Shown here in pieces: positions 595 to 34,420 of a stretch of 50,206 bases of DNA. Location of the stretch: positions 1-50,206 of the forward strand of contig JANXXJ010000077.1 in the NCBI GenBank assembly GCA_025350665.1, in the 5' to 3' direction. Under the pieces are notes generated by a model, which saw only the letters and a program-made list of their open reading frames with translations, was not told where the DNA came from and made no database searches. Each line of letters begins with the position of its first letter. Position 1 is the stretch's first letter. The DNA is from Gemmatimonadota bacterium. Lineage in GTDB: Bacteria > Gemmatimonadota > Gemmatimonadetes > Gemmatimonadales > GWC2-71-9. The translations under genes and the position numbers were made by a program.

Positions 595-3500
595 TCAGGC
601 CGCGGCCCGGTCCTGTTCGCCGAGTCGGACGCCGACGATCGTGGACACTCCCGGCTCCTGCATGGTCACGCCGAAGACCGCGTCAGCCGCCTGCATGGTT
701 CGCGGATTGTGGGTGATGACGACGAACTGGGTCTGCTCCTTGAACTCGTGGAGCAGGTTGGTGAACCGCCCCACGTTGGAGTCGTCCAGCGGCGCATCGA
801 CCTCGTCCATCAGGCAGAAGGGGCTCGGCTTGGTGAGGTAAATGCTGAACAGCAGCGATACCGCCACCAGCGTTCGCTCGCCGGAACTGAGGAGGTGAAT
901 CCGCTGGGTCTTCTTGCCACGCGGCGCGGCGTGGATTTCGATTTCGGCCTCGAGCGGGTCGTCGACGTTGGAGAGCCGGAGGTCGCACTCGCCGCCGCCG
1001 AAGAGGGTCTGGAACACCTTGTGAAAGTTGGCCTGCACGGCCATAAAGGTGTCGAGGAACAGCGTCCTGGCCGTCCCGTCGATCTCCTTGATCGCCTGGA
1101 GCAGGGACTGGCGCGCGGCCACGAGATCGTCGCGCTGGGCGGTCAGGAATTCAAGACGCTTGGTCTCTTCGGCGTGTTCCTCGACCGCGAGCGGATTGAC
1201 CGGCCCGATGGCTTCGAGGCTCTGGACGATTCGCGACAGTTCGGTTTCGAGCGTTTCCCGATCCAGTTCGAGGAACTGCACCCGGCACATCAGGTCGTCG
1301 AACGGGGAGCGCCACTCGGTTTCCACCCGGTCGATGATGGTACGCCGGACTCCGGCGACCTCGGTGAGTTCGAGTTCGAGATGATGGAATTCCTCGCTGG
1401 CGCTGTCGACGTCGGCGCGGAGACCCAGGACACCCTGTTCGGCGAGTGCGAGCGTCGCGTTCGAGCCCGCCAGGGCGCCTTCGGCGTTGGCGGTGGCCAC
1501 CTCGAGTTCGGTCAGTGCAAGCAGTCGGTCCTGGCGTTGTTCGAGCCACCGGCCGTGTTGCGCCGAGAGGGCGATGGACTCCTGCTCCAGTTGGGCGATC
1601 TCGTGTTGCAGCGTCTCGGCGGCCTGCCGGGCGAGTTCGATGGTCTGATGGGCCCGGTCGAGGCGGTCGTTCGTCGCGCGAAGCCGGGCGGCGACGTGGG
1701 CCTCCTGGACCTGCCAGTGCACCCGTCCTTCTCGGGCGGCTTCCTGTTCGGTTTCGAGTGCGGCCAAGGTGGATCGGGCGGCACCGAGGGCCTCATCCTG
1801 GCGAGCCCGGGCGAGGTCGCCATCGCGGAGGGCGGTGCCGACTTCGGTGAGCCGGCTCGCCGATTTCGCGATGCGCTCGTTGAGGCGGCCGAGCTGGTGC
1901 TCGGCATCATTCCGTTCCCGGGCGAGCGACACGAGCAGGCGGTTGCCGTCGTCGCGGGCAACCGTGGCCTGGCGTTCGCTTTCGCGGGCCTGTTCCATGA
2001 CGGACTGGGCGTGCGCAGCGCTTCGCTCGACCTCGCCGAGGCGCTCCCGGGTCGAAGTGAGGCGATCGACGATCGCCTTGAGTTGGCCGTCCTGGACCTC
2101 GATCTCCTGCCCCAGAGCAACGAGATCGGCCCGGCGCCGGATCGACCCGGACGGGGCGGCCGCGCCGCTAAGCAGGACCGCGCCCGTTGGCCGCTTGAGG
2201 ATCCGGCCGGACGGATGGAGCACCTCTGATCCGCCGAGCAAGGCATTGATCCAGCCCGTTGCCGGGCCTTCCGACGACAGTCGATCGGCGAGCGGATGCA
2301 CGCCATGGCCTTCCGTCGTCGGGCCCGGTTCGACCGGCAGAAGTACCAGGGAGCCGGGTTGAGCGTCCTCGTACCAGCTGTGGATCTCGTTGACCGTCGT
2401 CCAGTCCTTGACGAGGATCGCGTGCATCCATTCGCCGAGAAGCCGTTCGGCCAGTTCGGCGTCTTCGCGATTGGTGCTGAGGAAATCACTGAGGGGGCCG
2501 AGGACCGCGCCACCGAACCGCTGCCGGGCGGCGAGCAGTGCCTGCGCGGCCGGGGCGAGGCCAACCCGGTCGCGTTCGAGTTCCTCGAGGGCATGGCGTC
2601 GCGCGGTCAGTTGCGCGAGTCCTTCCTCGGCGATCCGGCGTTCGTCACGCTCCTTGGCCTCGCGTTCGCGGGTTTCCGCGACGAGGTGGCGGGCCCGGTC
2701 GGCGGCGGCGGTGGCGGCGATGGTGTCGTGGCTTCGGTCCAGGGCGTCCTGCTCGGCCGCCTGGGCCCGGGTTTCAGCCTCGGCATAGTGCTGGGCCAAG
2801 CCGGCGCAATGGGCCTGTTGCTGGGCCAGGGCCTCGCGGAGCGAGGCGAGATCGCCCTCGAGCGCGCTTCGCTCGCCTTCCAGAGCCCGAAGTGACTGGG
2901 CTTGCGCGTGGACTGCCTCTTCGAGGCGGCGGACCTCGTCCCGGTGGCTGGACAGCCGGAGGCGGACTTCGTCCTCGACCTGTGCCCGGGTCACGAGGTT
3001 GTCCTGGATCTGGAGGTGCTCGCCTTCGGCGAGGGTCCGGTCGGCGGCGGCCTGATCGCGCTCGAGCGCGGCCTGGTGGGTTCGCAATTCAACCTGCTGG
3101 CGCTCCTCCTCGTCCCGTTCCCGCCGGGCTCGCGCGTGGGTCAACCGTTCCGCGGCCACGGCGAGGTCGCCGTCGAGCTTGCCCAGCGCCACCTGGACGG
3201 CCGCCAGCTCCCGGGCCACGATGGCGCGATGCTCTTCGGCATTCAGCCGGTCGCGGCCGGCGCTTTCCTGGGCCTGACTGGCGAGCACGAGTCGTTCGCG
3301 GAGATCCGGAAGGGCAGCCTTGAGGTGCTCGTGGCGGGCCTCCATCCCGCTGGCGCGCTCCATGAGCTCGTCGAGAAGGCGACGGGCGAGGGTAAGCTGG
3401 ACGGAGAATTTCTCTTCCGTCAGTTTGCCGTGCCGCTCCGCCTTGCCTTTCTGACGGGCGAGACTCCGGATCTGTGACTGGACCTCCGCGAGCAGGTCCT

Positions 3501-4074
3501 CTAGCCGCTGAAGATCGGTCGCGGTTTCCTCGAGGCGCCGTTCGGTGGAGTGCTTTCGGTCTCGGTACAGGCCGATGCCCGCGGCCTCCTCAAACAACGA
3601 TCGACGCTCGTCGGCCCGGTCCGAGAGGAGCAGGTCGATCATCTTCGCTTCCATCACGACGCCGGCGTCGCTGCCCAGACCGGTACCGCGCAGCAGATCG
3701 TTGACGTCGCGGAGCCGGACCGAACTCTTGTTGATGAAATATTCGCTCTGGCCGGACCGGGTAAGACGGCGGGTGATCACGACCTCCCGGTAGGCAATCG
3801 GCAGGCCGCCGTCTTCGTTGTCGAGGTAAAGGGACACCTCGGTCACGTTGACCGGCCGCCGACTGACCGAGCCCTGGAAGATCACATCTTCCATCTTGCC
3901 GCCGCGGAGCAGCCGGGCCGAGGTCTCTCCGAGCACCCAACGCACGGCGTCCGAGACGTTGGACTTGCCGCAGCCGTTGGGGCCGACGATGGCGGTTACG
4001 CCGTGATCGAATTCGAGAGTAACGGTATCAGCGAAGGACTTGAAGCCGGAGAGTTCCAGCTTGAGCAGTTTCAT
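595..4074 (-). CDS. smc: Chromosome segregation protein SMC
   Basis: Condensin ATPase that loads on DNA with ScpA/ScpB and organises the nucleoid. Its 1159 residues match the usual SMC length. The head has a Walker A GPNGCGKSN (31-39). Two long coiled coils rich in E/R/A/Q flank a hinge at about 500-680, which includes GAVLGPLSDFL. The C-terminal head carries the ABC signature at 1062-1067 and Walker B FCLMDEVDAPLD (1086-1097). The signature reads LSSGER rather than the usual LSGGE(K/R/Q), so one signature glycine is serine. The N-terminus MKLLKLELSGFKSFAD is canonical, so the ATG at 4074 is secure although no clear Shine-Dalgarno precedes it. A terminator upstream (4131-4161) separates it from the SPOR lipoprotein gene, implying its own promoter, which I could not place. 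DAHP synthase follows 4 bp downstream. Confidence 0.97.
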   Translation of the reverse strand: MKLLKLELSGFKSFADTVTLEFDHGVTAIVGPNGCGKSNVSDAVRWVLGETSARLLRGGKMEDVIFQGSVSRRPVNVTEVSLYLDNEDGGLPIAYREVVITRRLTRSGQSEYFINKSSVRLRDVNDLLRGTGLGSDAGVVMEAKMIDLLLSDRADERRSLFEEAAGIGLYRDRKHSTERRLEETATDLQRLEDLLAEVQSQIRSLARQKGKAERHGKLTEEKFSVQLTLARRLLDELMERASGMEARHEHLKAALPDLRERLVLASQAQESAGRDRLNAEEHRAIVARELAAVQVALGKLDGDLAVAAERLTHARARRERDEEERQQVELRTHQAALERDQAAADRTLAEGEHLQIQDNLVTRAQVEDEVRLRLSSHRDEVRRLEEAVHAQAQSLRALEGERSALEGDLASLREALAQQQAHCAGLAQHYAEAETRAQAAEQDALDRSHDTIAATAAADRARHLVAETREREAKERDERRIAEEGLAQLTARRHALEELERDRVGLAPAAQALLAARQRFGGAVLGPLSDFLSTNREDAELAERLLGEWMHAILVKDWTTVNEIHSWYEDAQPGSLVLLPVEPGPTTEGHGVHPLADRLSSEGPATGWINALLGGSEVLHPSGRILKRPTGAVLLSGAAAPSGSIRRRADLVALGQEIEVQDGQLKAIVDRLTSTRERLGEVERSAAHAQSVMEQARESERQATVARDDGNRLLVSLARERNDAEHQLGRLNERIAKSASRLTEVGTALRDGDLARARQDEALGAARSTLAALETEQEAAREGRVHWQVQEAHVAARLRATNDRLDRAHQTIELARQAAETLQHEIAQLEQESIALSAQHGRWLEQRQDRLLALTELEVATANAEGALAGSNATLALAEQGVLGLRADVDSASEEFHHLELELTEVAGVRRTIIDRVETEWRSPFDDLMCRVQFLELDRETLETELSRIVQSLEAIGPVNPLAVEEHAEETKRLEFLTAQRDDLVAARQSLLQAIKEIDGTARTLFLDTFMAVQANFHKVFQTLFGGGECDLRLSNVDDPLEAEIEIHAAPRGKKTQRIHLLSSGERTLVAVSLLFSIYLTKPSPFCLMDEVDAPLDDSNVGRFTNLLHEFKEQTQFVVITHNPRTMQAADAVFGVTMQEPGVSTIVGVRLGEQDRAAA

Positions 4075-28822: not shown

Positions 28823-30552
28823 GGGCGCTCCTGGCGGCGGTGGCGCTGGCGGTGCTGGTGCCGGCCGGCTCGGCGGCCCAGGCGAACCCGGCGCCTGACC
28901 CGGCCACCCGCGCCTTCGATCTCGAACGGCGGGGCCAGTACGCGGCGGCCGCAGAAGTCTACCGGGGCATCCTGACCGCCCGCCCCGGCGACCTCGGCGC
29001 CCTCCTCGGTCTGGAACGATCTCTCGCCCCCCAGAACAAGCTCGGCGACATGCAGGCCGAGTTGCGGCGGGCGTTGACCGTGGGCCAGCCTTCGGCGGCA
29101 TTTTACGGCTTGGCGGTGAGAGTGGCCGTGGCGGCGGGCGTCGCGGACACGGCGCGGTCGCTGGTACTCCGCTGGATTGCCCTCGAACCCAAATCCGAGG
29201 CTCCCTACCAGGAGTGGGGGGCGGCGGCGTTAGGCGTCCGCGACCGGGCCCAGGCGAAGGCCGCCTATCAGCTCGGCCGCCAGCGGTTGGGGGACAGCGT
29301 GCTGGCCGGCGAACTGGCCCAGTTGGCGACGATCGAAGGCGACTACGAGGCCGCGGTGCGCGAATGGCTGGCGGCCATTGCCCGGACTCCCGGGTACCGA
29401 TCGGCCGCGGTTTCGATGCTCGGGCAGGCCCCGGTGACCGGCCGGCCGGCGGTGCTCCGGCATCTGGAGGCGGCCCGAAGCGCGGCGGCGGAGCGGGTGG
29501 CCGCTACCCTCACGATCCGCTGGGGCGATCCGGTCGGCGGCCTGCGGCGGCTGGAGCGGGCGGCGCCCGTGATTGGAGACGGCATGGTCGAGGCCCTGCA
29601 GGACGGCCTCGACGAAGTGCGGGGCGGGTCGGGCCGGGAGGCCGGCATGGCGCGCGCGATCGGCCTCGAACTCCTCGGCGCCCGGATCCCGGCTCAGAGT
29701 ACCCGATACTGGCTCGAGTCGGCTCAGGCGTACGCCGACGCGGGTGATCAAGGCTCGGCCCGCCGGATGCTCGGGAAGCTGGCCGCCGATCCCAAGGCCT
29801 CGCCGACCATGGCGGCGTCGGCGACCTCGACTCTGGTCTCTGTGCTGATTGCCGAAGGCAAGATGGACGAGGCTGCCAAACAGTTCGCCCAGCTCAAAGG
29901 GGTGCTGGCCGAGGAAGAGCGAGAGGGGCTGCTGATCAGACTGGCCGAGGGGTGGGTTCGGGCCGGGAAGCTCGATCGGGCCGATCAGGTGATGGCCAAG
30001 GACAGTACGGTCGACGGCCTCGCGGTGCGGGGCCGGATCCGCCTGTATCTCGGCGACCTGGGCGAGGCTTCGACACTGCTGCGGGCGGCGGGTCCGTTCG
30101 CGGGGGCACGGGACGCGTCGGTCTCCCGGACCACGGCGCTGGCCCTGCTGCAGGTGATCGATGAGGACAGCCTGCCGCCGTTAGGCTCCGCCCTGCTCAA
30201 GCTCGAGCGCCATGACAGCGTAACCGCCGGCCAGGACCTGGCCCGGGTCGGTGCCACGCTCCCGCCCGACCGCGGCGGTGCCGAGGTCCTGTTGCTGGCC
30301 GGGCGGGTCCAGGCCGGCGCGGGGAACCGCAGTGAGGCCGAACGGCTGTTCCGGCTGGTCAGCGACCTCAAGGTGCCGGCGAGCGCGGCCCAGGCGACGG
30401 TCGAACTGGCCCGGATCCTCGTCGCCACCGAACGGAAGCCTCAGGCGATCGAGATGCTGGAGCAACTGCTGGTGAGCTATCCGATGAGCGCGGTCGCGCC
30501 CCAGGCCCGACGAATCATCGATCAGGCGAAGGGAGCGATTCCGCCGTCATGA
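28819..30552 (+). CDS. Exported TPR-repeat protein
   Basis: 577 residues. Signal peptide MRALLAAVALAVLVPAGSAAQ, then TPR-type helical repeats: FDLERRGQYAAAAEVYRGILTARPGDLGALLGL near the start, EWGAAALGVRDRAQAKAAYQ, LLAGRVQAGAGNRSEAERLFRLV and ILVATERKPQAIEMLEQLLVSYP near the end. Probably a periplasmic protein-interaction scaffold working with the preceding membrane protein. Overlaps both neighbours by 4 bp, so translation is coupled. Two CGTTAGGC copies lie in this gene (29228 and 30179). Confidence 0.8.
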   Translation: MRALLAAVALAVLVPAGSAAQANPAPDPATRAFDLERRGQYAAAAEVYRGILTARPGDLGALLGLERSLAPQNKLGDMQAELRRALTVGQPSAAFYGLAVRVAVAAGVADTARSLVLRWIALEPKSEAPYQEWGAAALGVRDRAQAKAAYQLGRQRLGDSVLAGELAQLATIEGDYEAAVREWLAAIARTPGYRSAAVSMLGQAPVTGRPAVLRHLEAARSAAAERVAATLTIRWGDPVGGLRRLERAAPVIGDGMVEALQDGLDEVRGGSGREAGMARAIGLELLGARIPAQSTRYWLESAQAYADAGDQGSARRMLGKLAADPKASPTMAASATSTLVSVLIAEGKMDEAAKQFAQLKGVLAEEEREGLLIRLAEGWVRAGKLDRADQVMAKDSTVDGLAVRGRIRLYLGDLGEASTLLRAAGPFAGARDASVSRTTALALLQVIDEDSLPPLGSALLKLERHDSVTAGQDLARVGATLPPDRGGAEVLLLAGRVQAGAGNRSEAERLFRLVSDLKVPASAAQATVELARILVATERKPQAIEMLEQLLVSYPMSAVAPQARRIIDQAKGAIPPS

Positions 30553-31838
30553 AGCGACGAACGTTCGTCGAAGTCGGCGCGGGGTCGGTTGCCGCAGTGC
30601 TGTGGCCCCGTGGGGGGATGGCCGCGCGCCGGGCCGCCGACTACCTGCTGGTGCCGATGGATGAGGCCCAGGCCGATCACCTCAAGGCGTACGGCCTGAC
30701 CTACCGGCTGCTGAACCGAACCGGCAAAGCCGAGTGGTTCCTCAACTATCGAGGCGGGTCGTTCCTGCTGCCGGGCGACGGGGCGACCGCCCGCGATGCG
30801 GCCCTTTCGGGTGTGACCGTTGAACCGGTCGATGAGAGCGCGGTGTTCCAGATCCGGGCCGAGATCAAAGAGTCGAACATGGACGCGGTCCCGCTCGAGA
30901 AGCCGCCCAAAGTCGCGGTGTACGCGCCGCCGAATGCCGCCCCGTGGGACGATGCGGTGACGATGGTCCTGCAGTATGCCGGGATCGAGTTCGACAAGAT
31001 CTGGGATGAGGAGGTCGTCAGCGGCAAACTCAAGACGTATGACTGGCTTCACCTCCATCACGAGGACTTCACCGGCCAGTACTCCAAGTTCTTCCTCAAC
31101 TACAACGGCGCGCCGTGGCTACAGGAAATGGTCGACCGGAACGAACGGATGGCCCGGAAACTCGGGTTTCGCGACGTCCCGGCGAACAAGCGGGCGGTGG
31201 CGTACGGGATCTTTCAGTTCGTGGACAACGGCGGGTTCCTGTTTGCGATGTGTACCGCAACCGAGACGCTCGATCTGGCGTTGGCGAGTGACGGGGTGGA
31301 CATCGCCGCCAGTTTCGCCGACGGTACACCGATGGACGGGAACGCCAGCGCCAAGATGAACTGGGACCGGGCGCTCGCCTTTCAGGGTGCCCGTCTCGAG
31401 CAAAGTCCCTCCCTGGCCCTGTTTTCCGACATCGACGGTCATCAGGTCAACTCGCCCGACCGGCGGCAGCCGCTGGGCACCTTCACGCTGTTCAACTTCA
31501 GCGCCAAAATCGACCCCGTGCCGGCCATGCTGGTTCAGAACCATCGCCAGGTGATTCCCGACTTCTATGGCCTCACGACCTCGTTCATGAAGAACCGTCT
31601 CAAACCGGGCATCACGGTTCTCGCGGACGAACCCGGGGCCCCGTGGGCGAAATACATCCGGGGTGACCGGGGGAAGGGCACCTGGTGCTTCTTCGGCGGC
31701 CATGACCCGGAGGACGCCCAGCATCAGATTGGCGACGCCCCGACGGATCTGTCGCTTCATCCCCACTCGCCGGGCTATCGCCTGATCCTCAACAACGTGC
31801 TGTTCCCGGCCGCCAAGAAGAAGGAACTCAAGACCTGA
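30549..31838 (+). CDS. Tat-type exported protein of an uncharacterised family
   Basis: 429 residues. The N-terminus MKRRTFVEVGAGSVAAVLWP resembles a twin-arginine signal. Strongly conserved-looking stretches are YLLVPMDEAQADHLKAYGLTYRLL, WFLNYRGGSFLLPG, KVAVYAPPNAAPWDDAVTMVL, YDWLHLHHEDFTGQYSKF and GKGTWCFFGGHDPEDAQH. I recall relatives in Bacteroidetes labelled 'asparagine synthetase B', but no synthetase or glutaminase motif is visible and I would not use that name. The middle (FQFVDNGGFLFAMCTATETLD) suggests a flavodoxin/amidotransferase-like fold. Last gene of the DUF4159 cluster, with an ATGA overlap to the TPR gene. Confidence 0.6.
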   Translation: MKRRTFVEVGAGSVAAVLWPRGGMAARRAADYLLVPMDEAQADHLKAYGLTYRLLNRTGKAEWFLNYRGGSFLLPGDGATARDAALSGVTVEPVDESAVFQIRAEIKESNMDAVPLEKPPKVAVYAPPNAAPWDDAVTMVLQYAGIEFDKIWDEEVVSGKLKTYDWLHLHHEDFTGQYSKFFLNYNGAPWLQEMVDRNERMARKLGFRDVPANKRAVAYGIFQFVDNGGFLFAMCTATETLDLALASDGVDIAASFADGTPMDGNASAKMNWDRALAFQGARLEQSPSLALFSDIDGHQVNSPDRRQPLGTFTLFNFSAKIDPVPAMLVQNHRQVIPDFYGLTTSFMKNRLKPGITVLADEPGAPWAKYIRGDRGKGTWCFFGGHDPEDAQHQIGDAPTDLSLHPHSPGYRLILNNVLFPAAKKKELKT

Positions 31839-31903: not shown

Positions 31904-34420
31904 ATGAACGCCCTTCCGCCCGTCGACCGGTTATCCCCGGCCGTTCGCGACTATCTGGCCCAGGAAATCGATCACGCCGGCGGGCGGGAGGTCTGTTTCG
32001 TGGCGTCGGTCGCCAGGGACGGGCGGCTGATCGAGGCGCGGGCGGTGGCGCGCGGGACGCCCGACATGGTGCTGGCGCTGCCGGGGATCGCGCGGCGGGG
32101 TGAGATGGTGATTCACAATCACCCGACAGGTCTCCTGGAGCCGTCGCATGCCGATCTGAATGTGGCCGCCCGGTTCCACGATGCGGGGATCGGGTTCGGG
32201 ATCATCGACAATGACGCGGTGGCGCTGTACGTGGTGGTTGAGGTGCCGACCGCCCGAGCCGTGGTCCCGCTCGATCCGCTGGCGGTGGTGGGGCACCTGG
32301 GCGAGGGCGGGGCCGTGGCCCGGCTGATGGGGCAATACGAAGATCGGCCGAGTCAGCGGGACATGGCGGCCTACATCGCCGACGGGTACAACGACGGCGG
32401 CGTCCTGCTGCTGGAGGCGGGCACGGGGGTCGGCAAGTCGTTTGCGTATCTCGTGCCGGCGCTGGAATGGGCCAGGCTGAACGACGAGCGGACCATTGTA
32501 TCGACCAACACGATCAACCTGCAGGAGCAGCTGGTCGGGAAGGATCTGCCGCTGCTCCGGCAAGCGTTAGGCGACGACACCCGCCAGCCGACGTTCGCGC
32601 TGCTCAAGGGCTGGCGCAACTATCTCTGCCTGGCCCGGCTCGAGGTGGCGTCGGCGGGCCAGCAGTCGCTGCTCGAGGATGGCCGGGTGGCGGAACTGAT
32701 GTCGGTCGCCGAATGGGCCACCCGTACGGCCGACGGAACGATCGGCGATCTCGCCACGCCGCCGTCCTCCGAAGTGTGGGACGAAGTCTCGGCCGAGTCC
32801 GACCTCTGTCCCCGCCTCAAGTGTCCCCATTTCGATCGGTGCTTTCTGTTCCGGGCCCGGCGGAAGGCGGCGGAGGCCGATGTCGTCGTGGTGAATCACC
32901 ACCTGCTCGCCGCCGACCTGGCGGTCCGGCAGCAGTCGGACAATTGGGAGGATGCGGCGGTGCTGCCGCCGTATCAGCGGCTCATCCTCGACGAAGGTCA
33001 CCATCTCGAGGACGTGGCGGCGAACCATCTCGGCAAGCGGCTCTCGAGCGTCGGTGTCCGGCGGCTGCTTGGCCGAATGGAGCGCAACGGCCGGGGGCTG
33101 GTGCCGACGCTGGTCCGGGAGCTGATGCGGGACGCGGATGTGCTGTCCCGCGCCAGCCTCCAGCTGGTCCATGAACGGCTGATGCCGGCCATCGGCGAGG
33201 CCCGCCACAGCGCGGACGCGATGTTCGATCGCCTGCATGGCCGCCTGGCCACGGAAAGCGGGCCACTCCGCCTGACGGACGACTTCGCGACGGATCCGGT
33301 CTGGGCGGAAGGGCTGACCCGCGAAGTCGAGGCGCTTCTGGGCGCCTTCCGACGGCTGGCCGATGACGTCGCCACGGTCGCCGACCGGTTGAGCCAGGGC
33401 GACATGAGCGACCGCCGGACCCAGCTGCTGCAGGAACTCAAGGCGGTCGTCCGCCGCTTCGACTCCGCCACCGACGCGGTCAACCAGACGCTCCGGCCGG
33501 TCGGCGGCGGACCACCCGTAGTGCGATGGGTCGAGCGGGCCGGTGCCCGGGGCACCAACATCGCACTGGCCGCCGTGCCCCTGGATCTGGCGCCGTTGCT
33601 CCGCGAGCTGCTGTTCGACCGGAACAAGACGGTGGTGCTGACCAGCGCCACGCTCGCCGCCGGCGGGGAGTTCGACTTCCTCGAGTCGCGGCTGGGCCTG
33701 AACCAGTCGCCGTCACTGGTCACGGTCCGCGAGATGTTGCCGTCGCCGTTCGACTACCCATCCCAATGTCTGTTCGGGGTTCCCAATGATCTTCCCGATC
33801 CCCGGGAGGATGAGGCGGCCCACGACGAGGCCGTCGCTCAGATCATCCGCGATCTGGCGTACGCCTCGGACGGCGGGATGTTCGCCCTGTTCACGAGCCA
33901 TGGCGCCCTCCGGCGGGCGGCGGACCGGCTTCGGGGGCAGCTCGACCCTCGCTGGCCGCTGCTGGTCCAGGGGCAGGGCAGTCGTGACGCTCTGCTGCGC
34001 CGGTTTCGCGAGGCCGGGAACGGAATTCTGCTGGGCACCGACTCGTTCTGGGAGGGCGTGGACGTGCCGGGCCGGGCGCTCCGATCTCTGGTGCTGTCCA
34101 AGTTGCCGTTCAAGGTGCCTTCCGAGCCGCTGACGGCGGCCCGACTGGAACGGCTGGCCGAGCAGGGCGCGGACGGGTTCTTCCAATACCTCCTTCCGCA
34201 TGCGGCGCTCAAGCTGAAGCAGGGTTTCGGCCGGCTGATCCGGTCCCGGTCGGACGTCGGCGTCGTGGTGTTGCTCGACAGCCGGGTCCTCAACCGTCGT
34301 TACGGTCCCTGGCTGCTGAGCGGACTCCCGAGGGCGTCACGGATCGACGGGTCCTGGGGACAGGTCCGAACAGCCGCCGAAGACTTCTTTGCCCGCCACG
34401 GGATCGGGGCCGAGACCTAA
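31904..34420 (+). CDS. DinG/XPD-family helicase with N-terminal RadC-like JAMM domain
   Basis: 838 residues. Residues 1-125 form a JAB/RadC-type domain with a complete JAMM metal site: a candidate Glu29 (REVCFVAS) and HNHPTGLLEPSHAD (His71, His73, Ser81, Asp84). Then a superfamily 2 DNA helicase of the DinG/XPD type: Walker A EAGTGVGKSF (171-180), four Fe-S cysteines (242, 302, 307, 313), Walker B DEGH (363-366), motif V around TDSFWEGVDVPG and motif VI QGFGRLIR (773-780). DinG helicases unwind DNA 5'-3' and act on replication forks, R-loops and G-quadruplexes. B. subtilis-type DinG has an N-terminal exonuclease; here a JAMM domain replaces it. A TATCTT lies 6 nt before the ATG (31892-31897), suggesting a leaderless start, but I see no good -35. 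Confidence 0.9.
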   Translation: MNALPPVDRLSPAVRDYLAQEIDHAGGREVCFVASVARDGRLIEARAVARGTPDMVLALPGIARRGEMVIHNHPTGLLEPSHADLNVAARFHDAGIGFGIIDNDAVALYVVVEVPTARAVVPLDPLAVVGHLGEGGAVARLMGQYEDRPSQRDMAAYIADGYNDGGVLLLEAGTGVGKSFAYLVPALEWARLNDERTIVSTNTINLQEQLVGKDLPLLRQALGDDTRQPTFALLKGWRNYLCLARLEVASAGQQSLLEDGRVAELMSVAEWATRTADGTIGDLATPPSSEVWDEVSAESDLCPRLKCPHFDRCFLFRARRKAAEADVVVVNHHLLAADLAVRQQSDNWEDAAVLPPYQRLILDEGHHLEDVAANHLGKRLSSVGVRRLLGRMERNGRGLVPTLVRELMRDADVLSRASLQLVHERLMPAIGEARHSADAMFDRLHGRLATESGPLRLTDDFATDPVWAEGLTREVEALLGAFRRLADDVATVADRLSQGDMSDRRTQLLQELKAVVRRFDSATDAVNQTLRPVGGGPPVVRWVERAGARGTNIALAAVPLDLAPLLRELLFDRNKTVVLTSATLAAGGEFDFLESRLGLNQSPSLVTVREMLPSPFDYPSQCLFGVPNDLPDPREDEAAHDEAVAQIIRDLAYASDGGMFALFTSHGALRRAADRLRGQLDPRWPLLVQGQGSRDALLRRFREAGNGILLGTDSFWEGVDVPGRALRSLVLSKLPFKVPSEPLTAARLERLAEQGADGFFQYLLPHAALKLKQGFGRLIRSRSDVGVVVLLDSRVLNRRYGPWLLSGLPRASRIDGSWGQVRTAAEDFFARHGIGAET

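Follow-up and report, generated by a model that had tools for sequence, protein, structure and literature searches.

A RadC-like domain fused to a YoaA/DinG-type helicase

The window, a stretch of 50,206 nucleotides of contig JANXXJ010000077.1 from a Gemmatimonadota bacterium (source assembly of 4.59 Mb in 366 contigs), contains on its forward strand one intact reading frame with an ATG start, 838 codons followed by a stop, and no internal stop. When the 838-residue product was analyzed with Pfam, only three domains were found: RadC (PF04002, residues 13-100, 30.5 bits for a cut-off of 22.1), DEAD (residues 164-211, 29.4 bits for a cut-off of 26) and Helicase_C_2 (residues 649-809, 142.5 bits for a cut-off of 25.3). 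No exonuclease domain was detected by Pfam at the N-terminus. The features of the locus are as follows.

31904..34420 (stop included), + strand: RadC-like DinG fusion protein, 838 aa (reading frame, Pfam, NCBIfam)
31931..32257, + strand: RadC-like JAB/JAMM domain, residues ~10-118 (Pfam, domain profile A2, model)
31988..31990, + strand: JAMM Glu29, invariant in 105/105 fusions, just ahead of the first core strand (residues 30-36 in the model)
32114..32122, + strand: JAMM His71-x-His73, invariant in 105/105
32144..32155, + strand: JAMM Ser81 and Asp84, invariant in 105/105
32297..34348, + strand: YoaA/DinG-type Fe-S superfamily 2 helicase, residues ~132-815 (NCBIfam YoaA model, match to 6fwr)
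32414..32440, + strand: Walker A EAGTGVGKS, residues 171-179
32627..32629, + strand: Fe-S cysteine C242, Ser in some relatives
32807..32842, + strand: Fe-S cysteines C302, C307 and C313
32990..33001, + strand: Walker B DEGH, residues 363-366
34355..34396, + strand: predicted C-terminal helix, residues 818-831, taken from the model as the counterpart of YoaA alpha7

Within its own genome, the fusion domain was matched by domain profile A2 at E=4.4e-44. Among the best 80 of 563 relatives, the closest named ones were Gemmatimonadetes/Gemmatimonadales loci, in line with a Gemmatimonadota host, and the same architecture was also found in Desulfuromonadales, KSB1, Calditrichota, Dadabacteria and other loci.

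The JAMM site and the predicted fold

The JAMM/MPN+ signature consists of a glutamate and the motif HxH-x7-S-x2-D in a JAB fold. Signature and fold are both present in the window protein, where the signature is exact (E29, H71-x-H73-x7-S81-x2-D84). The earlier note had read His71-x-His73, Ser81 and Asp84 as a JAMM site, with Glu29 as a candidate for the fifth residue; in an alignment of 105 fusions (~24.5 clusters at 62% identity), none of these positions varies, so that Glu29 takes its place as the fifth JAMM residue and the ligands are retained in close homologues. Over residues 1-118, ten columns are invariant in the 105 fusions (E29, G51, A58, H71, N72, H73, P74, P80, S81 and D84), and all five JAMM residues fall within them.

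For this count, 9 of the 114 aligned rows were dropped, the domain being absent (L103 to L107, five rows from four genomes), partly present in another frame (L045) or not covered in the aligned frame (L047, L048 and L051); six further rows were taken out of the alignment as duplicates. The sample of 105 is biased towards good matches, as it was drawn from the best 80 of 563 relatives and one of the six patterns contained HNH. Since the 105/105 count stems largely from this best-hit sampling, the Gemmatimonadota sample was examined genome by genome (see below).

The first 134 residues were modelled with a mean pLDDT of 88.1. When this model was searched with Foldseek, five chains of the Chlorobium RadC 2qlc came first (best E 1.7e-5, TM 0.48-0.51), followed by a proteasome lid chain, CSN5, BubCD and CsRpn11 at E values from 2.5e-3 to 7e-3. 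The first 25 matches (E <= 0.026) were RadC and JAMM-fold proteins, with no nuclease among them. Weaker matches were obtained with a DNA deaminase (E 0.032), a splicing endonuclease (E 0.43) and a DNA/cytidine deaminase (E 0.49). By profile (HMMER), the next JAMM protein was AfJAMM, at a non-significant E of 0.074. The RadC-like character first read from the letters was thus borne out by the PF04002 score and by 2qlc as the best PDB match, and Pfam, Foldseek and HMMER agreed in placing the domain inside the JAB/MPN fold. The full-length model (pLDDT 88.3, pTM 0.83) matches E. coli DinG 6fwr at E 1e-42.

The helicase half and the absence of HolC

An intact Fe-S helicase with four cysteines and the main motifs had been proposed from the letters, and it was found as such (C242, C302, C307, C313, Walker A and DEGH). 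In NCBIfam, the YoaA model ranks first (residues 132-814, 571 bits), the DinG models giving 454 and 416 bits; this proximity to YoaA is an addition to the earlier DinG/XPD reading. The window protein stays below the YoaA equivalog cut-off of 680 bits, it is 34% identical to E. coli YoaA, and the latter lacks the N-terminal RadC-like domain. Searched against the PDB sequences, the protein gave its top matches with the chains of DinG 6fwr and of 8zef, a DinG that carries an exonuclease.

According to passages of PMC8378479, YoaA R619 and T620 are required for the interaction with HolC. These residues lie just before the C-terminal helix, where the window protein has Arg and Ile. In seven aligned family members read by eye, the T620 position is occupied by I, V, S, V, F, V and I, while the R619 position, variable among the relatives, is Arg in the window protein and in a single further member. 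The R619-T620 pair is therefore not maintained in the fusion family, T620 not being conserved. HolC itself (PF04364) was absent from the genome of the window and from 61/61 genomes, relatives included; of the 14 controls in this search, E. coli and Caulobacter were positive. This absence agrees with the main-text sections of PMC11981726.

A distinct RadC subfamily diverging together with its motor

The fusion domain shares with stand-alone RadC the JAB fold and the exact spacing HNHP-x6-S-x2-D. In contrast, the window protein scores far below the cut-offs of the whole-protein models of stand-alone RadC (25.6 for a cut-off of 180 bits with NF000642, 21.9 for 133.85 with TIGR00608) and is covered by them over residues 13-100 alone, which corresponds to their C-terminal JAB part. 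When 56 fusion domains were compared with 30 stand-alone RadC proteins of Gemmatimonadota, E, RG, HNHP, P, S and D were found in common; the fusion domains lacked the LVHPREVF stretch and the DH motif of the stand-alone proteins and carried a DN...YVVV segment of their own. Judged by these motifs, the JAMM domain of the fusion is a distinct RadC subfamily. A strong match of the stand-alone RadC type (E <= 4.3e-31) was present in 53/61 genomes, and therefore the fusion is no replacement for RadC.

The divergence of the two halves was followed by distance correlation with permutation, in place of a phylogenetic tree. For 101 sequences, the distances of the JAB domain correlated with those of the two motor parts at 0.906 and 0.902 (maximum of 300 permutations 0.107); outside Gemmatimonadota, the values were 0.796 and 0.848 for 50 sequences (maximum permutation 0.177). 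Such co-divergence is compatible with an old fusion passed on as a unit.

Presence of the fusion, loss of the site and loss of the domain

Profile A2 was run against 200 evenly drawn Gemmatimonadota genomes with a completeness of at least 85%. Some match was obtained in 192 of them, the weak ones having the size of stand-alone RadC matches. The fusion JAB subtype was present in 154 genomes, 152 of them at E <= 3.3e-23; the other two, G162 and G153, were added on a whole-protein match. Among the 150 rows listed (149 genomes), 145 frames had at least 772 aa and five had 136-394 aa; of these short frames, four (G012, G015, G151 and G184) run on into the helicase and the fifth (G097) reaches the end of the available sequence. 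As a separate protein, the fusion JAB subtype was never seen in the genome samples surveyed.

Of the 154 Gemmatimonadota fusions, 151 have an intact metal site (115 further domains, with E, H, H, S and D in 115/115, and 36 other intact genomes) and three, which keep the helicase motifs, a degenerate one, bearing in mind that a profile built on intact sequences may overlook very degenerate copies. As far as aligned residues can tell, the metal site is under selection. Among 197 genomes sampled from the phylum around Geobacter argillaceus, 19 carried the subtype at E <= 3.2e-38, with an intact metal site in 19/19; 17 of the 19 frames have at least 845 aa, and those of 200 and 517 aa enter the helicase as well.

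The three degenerate copies (G171, G162 and G153) come from two genera of one family, and their genomes measure 1.8-2.0 Mb. A fourth ligand-less fusion, G284, comes from another phylum and has lost all five JAMM residues; its 1231-aa frame contains one TGA, which lies outside the part that aligns with residues 5-831. In all four, the Walker A motif, the DEAH-type box and those C-terminal motifs that were examined are preserved. Since these four more distant fusions keep the domain but have lost the site, the domain is not catalytic everywhere; judged by their residues, such members show that it can persist without metal-site chemistry. A coupled loss of the JAMM site and the first Fe-S cysteine was also considered and rejected, because Ser at the position of this cysteine occurs together with an intact JAMM site (L160, L163, L164 and L049).

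In other genomes, the helicase lacks the domain. In the first search of relatives, a match was obtained in 55/61 genomes, with the N-terminal domain in 47; it was missing from the matches of G041, G045, G047 and G052, while those of G004, G013, G017 and G050 start at residue 253 or later and were taken as cut pieces. A whole-protein search was then applied to 50 genomes, namely G284 and 49 genomes from the Gemmatimonadota sample, of which 46 had no recognised domain and three were the ligand-less ones. It gave a match in 17 of them and none in the other 33. A helicase without recognisable JAB domain was found in ten sampled Gemmatimonadota genomes, eight of one family and two of another (G117 and G091); in G213, G013 and G130, the match begins only at residue 182 or later.

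Gene neighbours and upstream sequences

In KSB1 and Calditrichota, a metallo-beta-lactamase exonuclease-like gene ends at most ~60 bp upstream of the fusion in 6 of the 8 loci with upstream sequence (L053, L059, L068, L072, L074 and L079, not L061 or L092; L085, which is cut, was left out). TIGR04122, the model for the ligase-associated DNA damage response exonuclease, matches five of these six adjoining genes and a similar gene ~1.25 kb upstream in L066, with 185-233 bits, short of the 325 required by its cut-off. None of the Gemmatimonadota neighbours that could be named (DUF4175-like, TPR, FAH hydrolase) is a repair gene. Outside KSB1/Calditrichota, the listed neighbour clusters are poor in repair genes, with a RadC gene and a glycosylase-like gene at four loci each.

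Five LexA-box patterns, CTGTN8ACAG among them, were scanned in 113 upstream stretches, three of which belong to JAB-less helicases and in which six genomes are represented twice. Exact boxes were present at 0, 1, 1, 1 and 0 loci for 0.0, 0.6, 0.0, 0.4 and 0.4 expected, and boxes with one mismatch did not exceed expectation except for CTGTN8ACAG (4 loci for 2.3 expected). SOS control of the fusion is thus unsupported, no enrichment of LexA boxes being seen in the 113 stretches.

Relation to known systems

A "RadC-like DinG" subgroup, of the Desulfuromonas soudanensis type, has been defined by Cheng 2025 (PMC11981726). As described in the main-text sections of that paper, its members combine an N-terminal RadC-like domain with conserved E, H, H and D, intact helicase motor domains with the Fe-S cysteines and a YoaA-like C-terminal helix, and have no HolC homologue. 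The window protein has the same domain and residues, the same motor and cysteines and a predicted helix at 818-831, in a genome devoid of HolC; nothing bars it from membership, and this member comes from Gemmatimonadota. By its sequence features, the fusion is a chromosomal member of the published subgroup, and the architecture is not new. Passages of Iyer et al. 2017 (PMC5512222) already mention RadC fused to DinG/RAD3-like helicases. The ligand-less RadC-like DinG proteins, the KSB1 linkage and the motif differences are unmentioned in the literature found, the main-text sections of PMC11981726 included. These new facts refine the published subgroup without changing its kind.

Among the other subgroups, ExoDinG and EndoDinG carry nuclease domains (main text of PMC11981726). 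ExoDinG (S. aureus DinG, 8zef and 9ii8) likewise has an enzyme domain N-terminal to the DinG helicase; this is an exonuclease domain unrelated to the JAMM domain of the fusion. A 5'-3' helicase and a 3'-5' exonuclease activity are described for S. aureus DinG in the abstract of PMC12345164, and the unwinding of forked DNA by E. coli YoaA-HolC in section 3.2 of PMC11981726.

Possible functions of the fusion

The sequences establish the fusion architecture, a complete metal site, intact motor motifs, the co-divergence and the absence of HolC. For the function, the explanation that we tentatively place first, with somewhat less than even confidence, is a YoaA-type Fe-S helicase with an N-terminal JAMM zinc-hydrolase acting in cis, most likely on DNA-bound or cross-linked protein. 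The motor would load onto the single-stranded DNA of stalled forks or gaps and travel 5' to 3', and the JAMM domain would hydrolyse whatever the motor meets or unfolds, the probable substrate being peptide bonds of DNA-bound or cross-linked protein. Protein is favoured as substrate because the structural neighbours of the domain are peptidases. The linked exonuclease of KSB1 might exemplify a nuclease acting afterwards, and a few lineages would retain no more than a remnant of the domain that lacks the ligands. Coupled DNA-protein processing by the fusion, already suggested in the earlier note, is put forward as a hypothesis.

FANCJ is an XPD-family Fe-S helicase, and SPRTN is a different kind of protease from JAMM. 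In vertebrate DNA-protein crosslink repair, these separate proteins cooperate, FANCJ unfolding the crosslinked protein and enabling SPRTN to cut (passages of PMC12279946). In the reading of a helicase-coupled hydrolase acting on protein, the fusion would resemble FANCJ and SPRTN in one polypeptide, as an analogy of mechanism only. The more specific proposal of a one-polypeptide bacterial DNA-protein crosslink repair enzyme, in which an XPD-family unfolding helicase is joined to a JAMM metalloprotease and the site or the domain was later lost in some lineages, is doubtful.

Several observations were counted against action on DNA-bound protein: the lack of any reported activity of a RadC domain in the literature found, the nuclease proposal for RadC (passages of PMC5512222), the normal damage sensitivity of E. 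coli radC mutants (PMC11981726, main text), the four ligand-less fusions, the ten JAB-less Gemmatimonadota helicases, the lack of LexA-box enrichment and the small number of repair neighbours outside KSB1/Calditrichota.

The JAMM domain could instead be a metal-dependent nuclease or other nucleic-acid-processing enzyme, a counterpart of the DnaQ exonuclease of ExoDinG that trims the strand displaced by the helicase. We regard this as a genuine possibility, although not one to be expected, and on the published arguments a nuclease is nearly as likely as a protease. The domain occupies the position of the nuclease domains in the other DinG subgroups (PMC11981726, main text), a nuclease role for RadC has been proposed in print, and the passages of PMC5512222 concerned, citing Iyer 2011, consider RadC domains unlikely to possess the groove for a ubiquitin tail. 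The exonuclease-like neighbour in KSB1 would also provide the fusion with a nucleic-acid setting. The DALI search reported in the main text of PMC11981726 nevertheless gave no nuclease similarity. Our first 25 Foldseek matches were equally devoid of nucleases, the splicing endonuclease appearing only at E 0.43. We know of no JAMM nuclease. In the model, R50 lies at the end of a strand whose neighbour in strand order is that of E29, and it may contact a phosphate; no other Arg or Lys of the JAB domain reaches 90% conservation, yet R50 is kept in three members without metal site. Neither is it universal, with Ala in one intact fusion (L162) and, as read by eye, Glu in one Desulfuromusa RadC.

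A mainly structural, regulatory or recruiting module, for example a substitute for the HolC link to the replisome with a metal serving folding or binding, would account for the absence of HolC in 61/61 genomes and for the four fusions that keep domain and helicase motifs around a broken metal site. The pExoDinG subgroup, with its incomplete N-terminal nuclease centre (section 3.6 of PMC11981726), is a published parallel. We consider such a role unlikely, as the catalytic Glu and the Ser, which go beyond the metal ligands, are conserved in 151/154 fusions. A recent or chance gene fusion, or an assembly artefact, without function of its own can hardly be credited: nothing was found in its favour (a stand-alone-type RadC is also present in 53/61 genomes), and it is refuted by the spread of the same architecture from Gemmatimonadetes to Desulfuromonadales, KSB1, Calditrichota, Dadabacteria and others and by the correlated divergence of both halves. 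The JAB subtype is moreover unlike that of stand-alone RadC.

RadC domains are widespread, no activity of any of them is reported in the literature found, and the fusion is a defined protein in which a RadC-type activity can be tested. Its value for this purpose lies in a metal site kept in 151/154 cases on a helicase of a repair family. The natural variants, in which the domain is absent or the site is lost with the helicase motifs kept, are ready-made controls. Should the domain prove to be a protease, bacteria would possess a helicase-coupled crosslink protease; should it prove to be a nuclease, we would know of no earlier JAMM enzyme of that kind.

Relatives of the domain were also detected in viral contigs. 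In the domain-profile search, the best 80 of 113 such relatives showed 21-60% identity over the matched segments, with a best E of 9e-10.

Genes neighbouring the fusion

The gene lying directly 5' of the RadC-like DinG fusion encodes a product of 429 aa for which a Pfam search returned no match. In 16 named loci, relatives of this gene precede the fusion and share its orientation. Elsewhere in the window, near its start, an SMC-type protein is encoded.

window 30549-31838: 429-aa gene, directly 5' of the fusion
window 595-4074, minus: SMC-type protein, 1159 aa

In KSB1/Calditrichota loci, an exonuclease-like metallo-beta-lactamase gene adjoins the fusion upstream.

L053:5014-5991
L068:3028-3987
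L072:4972-5916
L074:5009-5971
L079:3407-4384

Other repair-type neighbours were observed. In L056, L065, L080 and L084 (grouped by clustering; scan of L056 only), the fusion is followed, after about 0.65-2.1 kb, by a stand-alone RadC gene with the same orientation, and a DNA glycosylase/endonuclease III-like gene lies upstream, on the opposite strand, in L065, L067, L069 and L084 (grouped by clustering; scan of L067 only).

L056:3779-4477, same strand as fusion, downstream: stand-alone RadC gene
L067:140-1117, opposite strand, upstream: DNA glycosylase/endonuclease III-like gene

Variation of the N-terminal domain

Four RadC-like DinG fusions combine a degenerate JAMM site with retained helicase motifs.

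L165 (G171)
L166 (G162)
L167 (G153)
L195/L411 (G284)

The published pExoDinG subgroup (PMC11981726) is comparable to these fusions. In L408 (G117), a helicase of the same family is preceded by a different N-terminal stretch, devoid of the JAB motif. When viral contigs were searched with the profile of the fusion's JAB/JAMM domain, the best match was L203, with 39% identity across query residues 29-122.
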